Shown here: positions 57,780 through 62,331 of the stretch, piece after piece | How positions within the stretch are numbered: the first letter of the stretch is position 1 | Layout of the letters: each line of letters begins with the position of its first letter | Assembly: GCA_027493955.1 (NCBI GenBank) | Contig: JAOSJT010000001.1 | Location: forward strand, 1,661,131 to 1,725,130 | Reading direction: 5' to 3' | DNA length: 64,000 nt | Source of the DNA: Bacteroidia bacterium | Lineage (GTDB): Bacteria > Bacteroidota > Ignavibacteria > SZUA-365 | Program-made: the position numbers and the translations under genes | The notes under the pieces: model-generated | The model's input: the letters and a program-made list of their open reading frames with translations, nothing else | Database searches by the model: none | What the model was told of the DNA's origin: nothing

Positions 57780-58376
57780 TCAGCTGCGGGCGAAACGCAG
57801 CAGTGGTTGAATGTCGCCGTTATCGGCGGCCCGCAGCGCGGCGATGTAGGCGGAGCGCGCGGCGCCGGTTTCGCGCAGTGTGCTGCTTCCCCAGGTAAAC
57901 ACACGTTCTCCGAGCACACGCGCGGCCAGAATATCCGCCATGAGACGCGCATGCCTGCCGTTACCATTGTGGAAGCAGTGAATAAAGACCAGGCGATGCT
58001 TGAAGCGCACGGCGATCTCGTCGGGCGGGTAGGTCCCGGCATTGACCCAGAACAGACAGTCGTCCAGCAGCAGCCGCAGTTCGACTCCGATCTGGTGCTT
58101 GTCTATGCCGATGTTCTTGTTCGTGCGCCGGAAGCTGCCCGCCCAACGCCACACATTGCCGAACATGCGCTGATGCAGATTCCGGACAAAGGACTCCGTG
58201 AGCACATCCTCCGCGCGGAAGCTTCGCGTGAACGTCCACTGCACGGCGGCTTCGATATTCTGCTGTTCGAATTCGTCGAGTTCGCCGCGTGTCGCGATGG
58301 TAGGGATGAGCAGCCCCTCCTTCTGATCTTCTTCCAGCGGAAGCATCGCGCTGAAGTGTCTTATCGCTGATCCCAT
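57780..58376 (-). CDS. Fic-domain protein, 'mobile mystery protein B' type
   Basis: A 198-residue Fic protein: FHRL... region followed by FIHCFHNGNGRHARLMADIL, containing the HxFxxGNGR catalytic motif with His and the phosphate-binding GNGR. N-terminal ELDEFEQQNIEAAVQW is typical of the TIGR02613 branch. It should transfer AMP to a target protein. The start lies 16 bp inside the end of the HTH partner gene, and this A/B pair recurs on mobile and accessory DNA, so a toxin-like role is inferred. Confidence 0.9.
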   Translation of the reverse strand: MGSAIRHFSAMLPLEEDQKEGLLIPTIATRGELDEFEQQNIEAAVQWTFTRSFRAEDVLTESFVRNLHQRMFGNVWRWAGSFRRTNKNIGIDKHQIGVELRLLLDDCLFWVNAGTYPPDEIAVRFKHRLVFIHCFHNGNGRHARLMADILAARVLGERVFTWGSSTLRETGAARSAYIAALRAADNGDIQPLLRFARS

Positions 58377-58831
58377 AGGTACCTCGGCATTTCACGAATG
58401 AGTTCTTCCGTTTTCGCGCGCACGGCCGAGGCGATGCGTTCCTCCGACACTCCCTGCTCTTCGAGTTCCATACTGGTGGCGGTGCGTAGCACGATGCTGC
58501 GCGCCAGTGATTCCGCCTGCTTCGAAATCATGCGACCCAGCGACTGTTCTTTCGGGATGACGAAATACACCAGGTACAGATCCATGGCTTCCGCCGCTTC
58601 CCGCAGCCGTTTCAACGTGATGCTGCCCTCCGCTTCGCGGTCCTCCATTTCTTTCACGCTTTGCGGTGAGATGTCCATACGCACCGCGAGTTGCCGCAGC
58701 GACATGCCGAGCGCTCGTCGTATCGCGTGTATCCACCCCCTATCGGGCATGGGCGTCTGCAGGAGCGGACGCAGTCCCCCGAGTTTGCGGTCCAGTTGTT
58801 CCGCCGCCAGTTTTCGGTATTCTTTTTTCAT
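58361..58831 (-). CDS. HTH protein, 'mobile mystery protein A' type
   Basis: A 156-residue XRE-type helix-turn-helix protein: KLAAEQLDRKLGGLRPLLQT, then IHAIRRALGMSLRQLAVRMD, ISPQSVKEMEDREAEGSITL and a helical C-terminus. It matches TIGR02612, always found beside the Fic partner. Likely antitoxin and autorepressor. ATG 58831 (MKKEYRKLAAEQ) chosen; the longer frame to 58918 is not conserved. Confidence 0.9.
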   Translation of the reverse strand: MKKEYRKLAAEQLDRKLGGLRPLLQTPMPDRGWIHAIRRALGMSLRQLAVRMDISPQSVKEMEDREAEGSITLKRLREAAEAMDLYLVYFVIPKEQSLGRMISKQAESLARSIVLRTATSMELEEQGVSEERIASAVRAKTEELIREMPRYLWDQR

Positions 58832-58974
58832 CTTCCAAGCTCCTACCGCCGCCGAGGGCGTCGCTGCGTGACACACGGCAGTATTTTTCAGGTCATAGAA
58901 TGAAACTCTGCACAGCATTATACGGTTTTACTTTGATTTATACAAGTATTTCATCAAGCTATGGGCTAAAATAT

Positions 58975-59520
58975 CATCGCAGAGACGCGGGGGGAATAAA
59001 ACGCAAAGGCGCACAGCTGCAGAGGCGCAGAGGAATTTATGTCGGGGTCTGTTGTCGCCGGATTTATTGGAAATTTCCTTTGGCTTGAGCGTGAAGGCCT
59101 TGAGGCGCAGGGGGAAGCACACGCAAAGGCGTAAAGCTGCAAAGGCGCAGAGGGAATATGAAAGGTGACCTCATGGTATCTATCCTTCATTTCTGCGATT
59201 TCTGTTTATTCTGCGTGTTCTGTGGTCCGCAGAGGCGCCTCTTCGACTACGCTCAGGAGCTGCAGAGGCGCAGAGGAATTTATGTCGGGGTCTGTTGTCG
59301 CCGGATTTATTGGAAATTTCCTTTGGCTTGAGCGTGAAGGCGTTGAGGCGCAGGGGGAAGCACACGCAAAGGCGCAAAGCTGCGGAGGCGCAGAGGGAAT
59401 ATGAAAGGTGACCTCATGGTCCCTCTCCTTCATTTCTGCGATTTCTGTTTATTCTGCGTGTTCTGTGGTCCGCAGAGACGCACCTTCGACTACGCTCAGG
59501 AACTGCGGAGGCGCAGAGGA
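58975..59520. repeat. 243-bp tandem repeat built of GCGCAGAGG elements
   Basis: A 243-bp unit occurs at 59015-59257 and 59258-59500, with a partial third start at 59501-59520 and a partial leader from 58975. Each unit runs from CTGCAGAGGCGCAGAGGAAT through GCCGGATTTATTGGAAATTT and GTGACCTCATGGT to CTTCGACTACGCTCAGGA. ORFs in it are by-products. Few differences separate the copies, so the duplication is recent. Confidence 0.92.
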
Positions 59521-59542: not shown

Positions 59543-60703
59543 TTATGTGAGCGGTTCGATATCTTGCAGAAGGCGGTTCGAGGCTACTGCGCGGATGTTT
59601 TCCGAGAGGGGAAAAGTGCCGTCACCGGAATGGATGACGTCGAGATGCTGCAACTTCAGATCCTTGAGGGCGATATGCATGGATCTTGTGGTTCCGGGCG
59701 CACTGCTTCTTTTAATTTCGAAACCTCTTCGCTGCCGTCCGCGGACCAACAGCAAATCCAGTTCGGCTCCTGCATGCGTTGCCCAGAAAAAACACTCGTC
59801 CGCTTCAGCGCCTGTATGCCGGATTATCTGATCGATGATGAAGCCTTCCCAGGACGTGCCGAGCACCGGGTGTACTTCGACATCCTCCCTGTTCCGGATT
59901 CCGAGCAGCGTGTGCAGCATCCCGCTGTCGGAGAGAAACACCTTTGGAGATTTGACTTGCCGCTTGGACAGGTTCTCATGCCATGGGCGGAGTTGGCTGA
60001 CAACGAGAGCCGCGGTGAGCGTATCGAGATAGCCTCGTACCGTGGTATCCGCAACACCGAACGATCTGGCGAAGTCCGAAGAATTCCAGAGTTGTCCGTG
60101 CCGATGCGCAAGCATGGTCCAGAACCTGCGCAGCGTCTCGGCGGAGATGGTTACACCGAGCTGCGGAAGATCCCGTTCAAGAAACGTACGAATGAAGGCG
60201 CGCCGCCAGGCCACACTGTCTTCTTCCGATGCGGCGAGAAATGAACGTGGAAAGCCGCCGCGGAGCCACAACTGGTCCTGCATAGCAATGCCTGTGTCGG
60301 AAAGAGAGAAGCCCCTGAGCTCATGAAAGAAAACGCGGCCGGCAAGACTTTCCGAACCCTGGCGCAGCAGTTCGGGCGAGGCACTGCCCAGAACGAGGAA
60401 GCGCGTGGAGTTACCTGACCTGTCGGCAAGGACACGAAGCACCGAAAACAAATCCGGCATTCGCTGCACTTCATCAAGAATCACCAAACCGCTCAGGCCT
60501 TTCAGCGCCGGCATTGCTTCCCGCAGCCGTGCCAGATCTTCAGGATTTTCGAGGTCAAAATGTGTAACAGACTCATGCCCAAGCTCACCAACGCTCTGCG
60601 CCAGCGTCGTTTTTCCAACCTGCCTCGCGCCAACAATACCGACAACAGGAAATAACCTGAGTGCCCGCTTGACCGCTTCGATGTCTGTTGTTCTTTCTAA
60701 CAT
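59543..60703 (-). CDS. AAA ATPase with DUF4143 (AAA_14 type)
   Basis: A 386-residue protein: MLERTTDIEAVKRALRLFPV, Walker A VGARQVGKTTLAQS, Walker B LSGLVILDEVQRMPDLF, then the DUF4143 nuclease-like domain (KVFLSDSGMLHTLLGI, SWEGFIIDQIIRH, CFFWATHAGAELDLLLV with the E-x-D-x-x-x catalytic-like pattern, RRGFEIKRSS). Such solitary ATPases are widespread; their role is unproven and they often sit in variable regions. ATG 60703 fits the family; the 15 extra upstream codons come from the hairpin repeat. Confidence 0.92.
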   Translation of the reverse strand: MLERTTDIEAVKRALRLFPVVGIVGARQVGKTTLAQSVGELGHESVTHFDLENPEDLARLREAMPALKGLSGLVILDEVQRMPDLFSVLRVLADRSGNSTRFLVLGSASPELLRQGSESLAGRVFFHELRGFSLSDTGIAMQDQLWLRGGFPRSFLAASEEDSVAWRRAFIRTFLERDLPQLGVTISAETLRRFWTMLAHRHGQLWNSSDFARSFGVADTTVRGYLDTLTAALVVSQLRPWHENLSKRQVKSPKVFLSDSGMLHTLLGIRNREDVEVHPVLGTSWEGFIIDQIIRHTGAEADECFFWATHAGAELDLLLVRGRQRRGFEIKRSSAPGTTRSMHIALKDLKLQHLDVIHSGDGTFPLSENIRAVASNRLLQDIEPLT

Positions 60704-60706
60704 ATC

Positions 60707-60896
60707 ACATTTTCCTTGAAATCTCGGTGCATGATGCTGATTTTTCAAGGAAAATATCTATTCGAACATTCAGTCGCAAATCAACAACGGACTACATGCA
60801 GACATTTTCCTTGAAATTCCTGCGTACTACACCGATTTTTCAAGGTAGGTGTCCAATCGAACCAGCAGGCGCAAGTCAGCTACGGACTTCGTCCAC
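60707..60896. repeat. two ~95-bp units, each with a TTTTCCTTGAAA hairpin, before the AAA-DUF4143 gene
   Basis: Unit 1 (60707-60801) has perfect 13-bp inverted arms ATTTTCCTTGAAA (60709-60721) and TTTCAAGGAAAAT (60743-60755). Unit 2 (60802-60896) repeats the first arm exactly and part of the second (TTTCAAGG, 60838-60845). Distal parts also align (ATTCGAAC..CAG.CGCAA.TCA / AATCGAAC). It starts 3 bp upstream of the ATPase ATG, so it should affect its transcription or translation. Confidence 0.8.
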
Positions 60897-62022: not shown

Positions 62023-62331
62023 ATGGCTACGCGTACCCCAGGCCGCAAACGCGTCTCTTCGGGCGAGGCCCTCGGCAAGAAGCTGCTCCCATCCGTGCGC
62101 GAAATGAAGGCCTCGCAGGCCGCACGTGTCACGAACATCGAGTCCAATGGCGTTGTGCAGGCACGCCATAATACCGGCTTGTCTTAAGCGCAATTTGCGA
62201 TGGCACTGAGCATTTCCATGCGTACGCTCCGGGAGTGGGAACAAGGTCGCCGCACCCCTTCCGGCCCCGCCCGGGCGCCTATCCGTATCCCAAATCGGCA
62301 TCCCGAAGTCGTGCGTGCGGTACCGGTTTGA
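62023..62331 (+). pseudogene. XRE-family (HigA-like) antitoxin with premature stop
   Basis: From ATG 62023 the frame reads LGKKLLPSVREMKASQAARV...ARHNTGLS, then TAA at 62185-62187, then AQFAMALSISMRTLREWEQG and IPNRHPEVV to TGA 62331. Family proteins read TGLSQAQFA here, so a Q codon (CAA) became TAA, cutting the protein before its helix-turn-helix. No HigB-type toxin is left upstream. A dead solitary antitoxin. Confidence 0.85.

Follow-up and report, generated by a model that had tools for sequence, protein, structure and literature searches.

The double palindromic unit upstream of an AAA_14-DUF4143 gene

The window, by which we mean the whole 64-kb stretch of DNA analysed, carries on its minus strand a gene for an AAA_14-DUF4143 protein of 386 residues (59543..60703, ATG at 60703), in which both domains were matched. 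As the earlier note had claimed, two 95-nt copies stand in tandem before this gene, unit 1 (60707..60801) adjoining it and unit 2 (60802..60896) being 72% identical to unit 1; neither unit is assigned a strand. The perfect 13-bp arms reported for unit 1 are located at 60709-60721 and 60743-60755, with 21 nt in between. The arm of unit 2 described as partly lost lacks only its outer A/T-rich part, but the core CCTTGAAA...TTTCAAGG is intact, and the CCTTGAAA-N21-TTTCAAGG dyad core is complete in both units. Each unit contains a putative operator on the minus strand. Operator 1 (60713..60751) is 39 bp long and consists of two inverted 17-nt half-sites with a 5-bp gap, and operator 2 (60808..60846) is positioned 95 bp farther upstream.

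The sequence TTTTCCTTGAAA occurs four times in the whole 5.24-Mb genome, three of them at the double unit. An operator model whose training loci include the window locus gave strong matches across the 64 kb at the two units only (scores of 38.6 and 38.5, the next being 19.9), and no match above 13 was obtained in five Markov-1 simulated windows. The double palindrome is a real feature, and a chance occurrence is excluded. A DNA search found no further copy of the double unit in the same genome. The exact arm pattern is present at 12 sites in 11 of 395 genomes, with five sites at AAA_14/DUF4143 genes and seven elsewhere, two of which look like genuine solo dyads.

Other loci near the gene were also observed. 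Adjacent genes at 57780-58918 match the NCBIfam 'mobile mystery protein' A (HTH, E 4.1e-45) and B (Fic-type, E 3.1e-76), forming another mobile pair beside the DUF4143 gene. The region 58930-59440 contains near-identical repeated segments, with peptides such as VGVCCRRIYWKFPLA present twice, and more copies around G000:C1:1259380-1260788 show that it belongs to a dispersed repeat family. On the other side, a small HTH (antitoxin-like) gene at 62023-62330 is apparently interrupted, an in-frame stop dividing its two parts as judged by eye.

Conservation of the palindrome among homologues

Homologous loci were gathered from the same genome (3), from the phylum (29 + 60) and from named genomes of many phyla (80), giving 172 loci. 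The phylum loci came from 395 genomes after omission of 13 low-scoring or contig-edge matches, and five further matches in the same genome, distant or partial, were omitted from the set. Removal of three loci with no usable start (L025, L034 and L098) and one with missing upstream DNA (L047) left 168 loci for analysis. Using a half-site model that looks for two inverted half-sites between -90 and +14 relative to the start, an operator was found near the start codon in 159 of the 168 genes (score >12), compared with 10 in shuffled sequences, 0 within genes and 2 at 400 bp upstream, the last control having slightly fewer loci (163 in the comparable palindrome count). At a score >20, the operator is found in 146/168 genes and in none of the shuffled, in-gene or upstream controls. 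A model-free palindrome score of at least 10 was reached by 120/168 genes, against 7/168 shuffles, 0/168 in-gene and 1/163 upstream sequences. Because the half-site model was trained on the same 168 loci, the held-out result counts more: 48 new loci were reduced to 36 distinct genes by removing training copies and duplicates, and 32 of these 36 have the operator. The earlier note had proposed looking for the hairpin upstream of related AAA_14/DUF4143 genes, and the 159 of 168 genes above carry it; the opposite pattern, a hairpin at unrelated genes and absent from homologues, was not what was found.

Six of the nine genes without a match near the start have one at -78 to -210, and the model detected no operator at the remaining loci L026, L072 and L164. 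More distant DUF4143 genes have dyads of other sequences, with a score of at least 10 in 24 of the 40 listed, the available comparison being the 7/168 shuffles of the close set. A plasmid search listed relatives on 255 records. Upstream of L293, a distant DUF4143 paralogue in the same genome (G000:C1:2160680), an element resembling CCTTTCATTTGG occurs in several direct copies and the dyad is absent, raising the question of whether this element is another operator type.

Position of the dyad relative to the promoter

Of the 159 operators, 136 have a gap of 5 bp between their two 17-nt half-sites. In 60 of the 80 named-genome loci, the dyad centre is located 27-36 bp before the start codon. In the consensus of these 60 loci, bases resembling TTGACA occupy -3..+2 of the dyad centre and bases resembling TANAAT occupy +19..+24, with the start codon near +31. 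These box positions place the expected transcription start at or beside the start codon. The mRNA is thus probably leaderless. In another 42 loci, which form a second class, the dyad is centred 17-21 bp upstream of the start and its right arm reaches the ATG. A promoter scan recognised no sigma-70-like promoter in the window itself, so the overlap of promoter and dyad is read from the relatives.

Long complementary arms close to a start codon could also form an RNA hairpin, and the earlier note had included an attenuator among its suggestions. Mismatches at paired positions are slightly more often G-T than A-C (123 vs 98). However, the excess is not significant (p 0.11), giving no clear RNA-type wobble, and the dyad has no Rfam match. 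In the 60 relatives, where the dyad centre coincides with the -35 box and the -10 box follows the dyad, the RNA would begin beyond the dyad and the hairpin would not be part of the leader. The spacing is rigid, the promoter boxes, where they are readable, fall within the dyad or border it, and the operator bases covary with residues of the protein, as described below. An attenuator or structured leader is hardly credible on these grounds.

Covariation between protein residues and operator bases

Mutual information was calculated between all columns of the protein alignment and the 17 half-site positions for the 154 loci with a score >14 and an aligned protein. The four top pairs are residue 311 with position 3 (ranked first, 19 SD), 219 with 12, 310 with 6 and 220 with 14. 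Position 3 is A in 21/21 loci with N311 and 12/12 with Q311, C in 8/8 with D311 and G in 7/7 with H311, and T in 32/36 with A311 and 15/18 with S311; it is mixed in the training loci in which residue 311 is G or T. Position 12 is C in 46/48 loci with D219 and G with H219 (30/30) or R219 (5/5). Similarly, position 14 is G in 26/31 loci with K220 and A in 31/37 with P220, and position 6 is A in 82/87 loci with H310.

Shared ancestry was taken into account in two ways. Among 74 independent sister pairs, column 311 gave the best match to changes at position 3 (p 6.7e-7), and column 220 to those at positions 12-14 (p 1.3e-6). In a 185-gene tree, the columns that co-changed best were 311 for position 3 (p 2.3e-8), 219 for position 12 (p 2.2e-8), and 218 (p 3.0e-9) and 220 (p 1.3e-8) for position 14. 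The pairing of residue 310 with position 6 was unsupported on this tree, where the best column was 283. Recognition rules were set before the held-out genes were scored, and a match was required in both halves. The rules held in 24/30 genes for residue 311, 7/11 for 219, 27/29 for 310 and 16/19 for 220 (permutation P of 2.5e-4, 1.0e-3, 5e-5 and 5e-5, respectively); among the held-out genes, those for T311 (3 T→T) and G311 (1 G→A) failed. In the window, all four half-sites of operators 1 and 2 carry T3, A6, C12 and G14. The first three are the usual bases with the A311, H310 and D219 of the window protein, and G14 is one of the two bases seen with its T220. Two copies in one Geobacter assembly (L106 and L114) show the same A-to-T operator difference in both arms.

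This covariation indicates that the encoded protein determines the specificity of the site. Operators that overlap promoters are often bound by unlinked regulators, and the palindrome might belong to another host regulator instead of the encoded protein, although no result of the analysis indicates one. However, the specificity shifts with residues of the encoded protein in the tree-aware tests and in the held-out genes, and gene and site occur together in unrelated contexts and phyla, making such a regulator very improbable.

Structure of the encoded protein

The window protein combines an AAA/STAND-type ATPase, a winged helix and a PD-(D/E)XK-like C-terminal domain, and matches the PADLOC PDC-S01 models (E 7.6e-80). 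In the AlphaFold model (pLDDT 96.3), residue 219 begins a helix (219-231) that is preceded by another short helix. Residues 218-220, where this presumed recognition helix begins (codons at 60044..60052, minus strand), covary with positions 12 and 14. Residues 310-313 form a loop immediately before Asp316, between the strands 304-309 and 314-321; its codons for residues 310 and 311 are at 59771..59776 (minus strand).

The top structural neighbours are 2qen (Z 16.7, rmsd 3.0, 245 aligned) and 2fna (Z 16.3, rmsd 3.3, 248 aligned), followed by neighbours that include the NLR, dynein and CED-4 ATPases. A PDB sequence search with the protein alone returned nothing useful, and a search with the profile gave mostly P-loop matches, 2fna and 2qen included. 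The archaeal STAND-like ATPases 2qen (PABY2304) and 2fna (SSO1545) have the best structural likeness to the window protein. However, their identity to it is 16-20%, and the alignment reaches only to about residue 268, leaving out the nuclease-like domain.

The C-terminal domain, modelled separately, resembles Can2 (Z 8.8, rmsd 4.3, 125 aligned), McrC (Z 8.4, rmsd 3.4, 121 aligned) and Hjc (Z 6.5, rmsd 3.3, 89 aligned). PD-(D/E)XK chains dominate its top structural matches, with modest scores, and the Foldseek E values are weak (6.8e-3 at best). The residues of the PD-(D/E)XK signature, encoded within 59711..59758 (minus strand), are conserved: Asp316 in 202/204 proteins, Glu or Asp at 329 in 202/204 and Lys331 in 201/204. 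By its modelled fold and these D...(D/E)-x-K residues, the domain can be placed in the PD-(D/E)XK superfamily, and the conservation suggests that catalysis is under selection, making the protein a candidate nuclease. The window protein shares the fold, Asp316 and Glu329-x-Lys331 with the nucleases Can2, McrC and Hjc, but differs in that the loop on its active-site side appears to read the operator.

PDC-S01, described as an ATPase fused to a PD-(D/E)XK domain, is a very common single-gene phage-defence candidate, fourth among all prokaryotic defences, and validation of most such candidates is pending (passages of PMC12988326). The window protein has the same build, whereas an operator, DNA specificity and regulation are absent from those passages. 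In the literature searched, DUF4143 appears in one paper, as a table row (PMC4406477).

Probable autogenous regulation

Given that the site is conserved at nearly all homologues and that its bases covary with residues of the protein, each palindrome is very probably an autogenous operator bound by the AAA_14-DUF4143 protein and read by two of its domains, most likely in repression. The operator reading of the earlier note is strongly supported by the conserved sites, the promoter boxes aligned to the dyad, the residue-base covariation and the held-out genes. The protein would bind the palindrome with one subunit per half-site. The winged helix would read the inner part of the operator, at about positions 11-15, and the loop adjoining the PD-(D/E)XK-like active site would read the outer part, at position 3 and perhaps 6. 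Since the relatives indicate that promoter and dyad overlap and that a probably leaderless mRNA starts there, protein binding should block RNA polymerase, and expression would stay low until the protein releases the operator, presumably through its ATP state or a trigger. Physical binding, repression and release are all predictions from sequence, and repression is preferred over activation from the operator position.

Repressors that regulate their own gene through a dyad operator over its promoter form a general class, with which the system shares inverted half-sites that lie over the promoter in the 60 relatives, a predicted HTH readout and tandem operators. It differs from this class in that the regulator is an AAA/STAND-type ATPase in which a nuclease-fold domain would supply part of the base readout, in its probably leaderless start and in a site that appears to travel with the gene. 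No description of an AAA_14-DUF4143 operator was found in the literature searched, whose scope left most subscription papers and all bioRxiv preprints outside. The autogenous operator is of a known kind, here with an ATPase-nuclease as its predicted reader.

Tandem operators

At least two matches above 13, some of them weak or overlapping, are present in 21 of the 164 loci for which 300 bp or more of upstream DNA was available, compared with 1/101 and 1/170 controls with any match. Neighbouring operators are 53-54.5 bp apart in ten loci, with a row of operators at L161; the spacing is 106 bp at L167, 95 bp in the window and 82 bp at L227, the nearest relative found of the window gene (73% identity). 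Upstream of L161, L152 and L019, the operators recur in arrays almost exactly every 53 bp, or about five turns of the DNA helix. The doubling of the operator in the window, as in L227, suggests cooperative binding.

Unit 2 could instead be a decaying tandem duplicate without function, leaving unit 1 alone as the operator, and its 72% identity and the loss of the outer part of one arm fit such decay. However, the same determinant bases are kept in all four half-sites, L227 likewise has two operators, and tandem operators recur elsewhere, often at 53 bp. A functionless unit 2 is rather unlikely, and two working operators are the preferred reading.

Possible mobility of the gene and its operator

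Among 17 close pairs (4-fold-site divergence of 5-25%), nine show no flank similarity on either side, and their similarity breaks off 0-16 bp beyond the operator and, at the other end, 0-9 bp past the stop codon; one of these pairs lies within one Geobacter assembly. The remaining eight share part of a flank or extend farther. The similarity limits of the nine pairs suggest that the operator travels with the gene. The gene does not have the structure of a transposon with a matching repeat at each end: by score, an operator-like site is located downstream in 7/164 loci, few of them convincing. The palindrome may or may not be an attachment sequence, as the earlier note had suggested: near-identical copies in unrelated contexts share only the stretch between roughly the edge of the operator and the stop codon, but few genes have an operator at their far end. 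At L058 (4 bp past the stop codon) and L152, cognate operators also follow the gene, which has operators on both sides there. Strong dyads of this type also occur alone, with no DUF4143 gene within 1.5 kb, at L188:1501-1537 and L189:1501-1537. A search near both gave no convincing DUF4143 remnant (best E 0.005), and they are possibly remnants, targets or sites of another regulator. An empty site was sought in 61 relatives using the window's own flanks, and no syntenic locus was found.

The palindrome might also be a recognition or cleavage site for gene movement, with operator and ORF forming a minimal selfish unit whose nuclease domain targets the operator, either at the gene or as a solo copy. 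The homology limits in 9/17 pairs, the solo dyads and the operators on both sides at L058 and L152 are consistent with this, as are the conserved catalytic residues and the location of specificity residue 311 five residues before Asp316. However, the ends differ by tens of bp in other pairs, there is no recombinase, right-end operators are rare, the relatives yielded no empty site, and regulation alone accounts for the promoter-linked placement. A role in movement is quite unlikely. In its broadest form, the common candidate 'defence' gene would be a self-addressing selfish unit in which operator and ORF move together, the nuclease domain reads the operator by its active site, and the palindrome acts as the switch of the promoter, as the boundary of the unit and as the site of cutting or insertion, the 53-bp arrays and solo operators being traces of past insertions and losses. 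We regard this picture as speculative and unlikely.

Implications for the family

The residue-to-base code gives the AAA_14-DUF4143 (PDC-S01) family a predicted activity, sequence-specific DNA binding. It ties each protein to the palindrome before its gene, providing a predicted target for each family member, and raises the question of why a conserved nuclease-type active site adjoins a predicted base-reading loop. The AAA_14-DUF4143 genes and their operators form a naturally occurring collection of proteins paired with the DNA sites that they are predicted to recognise.
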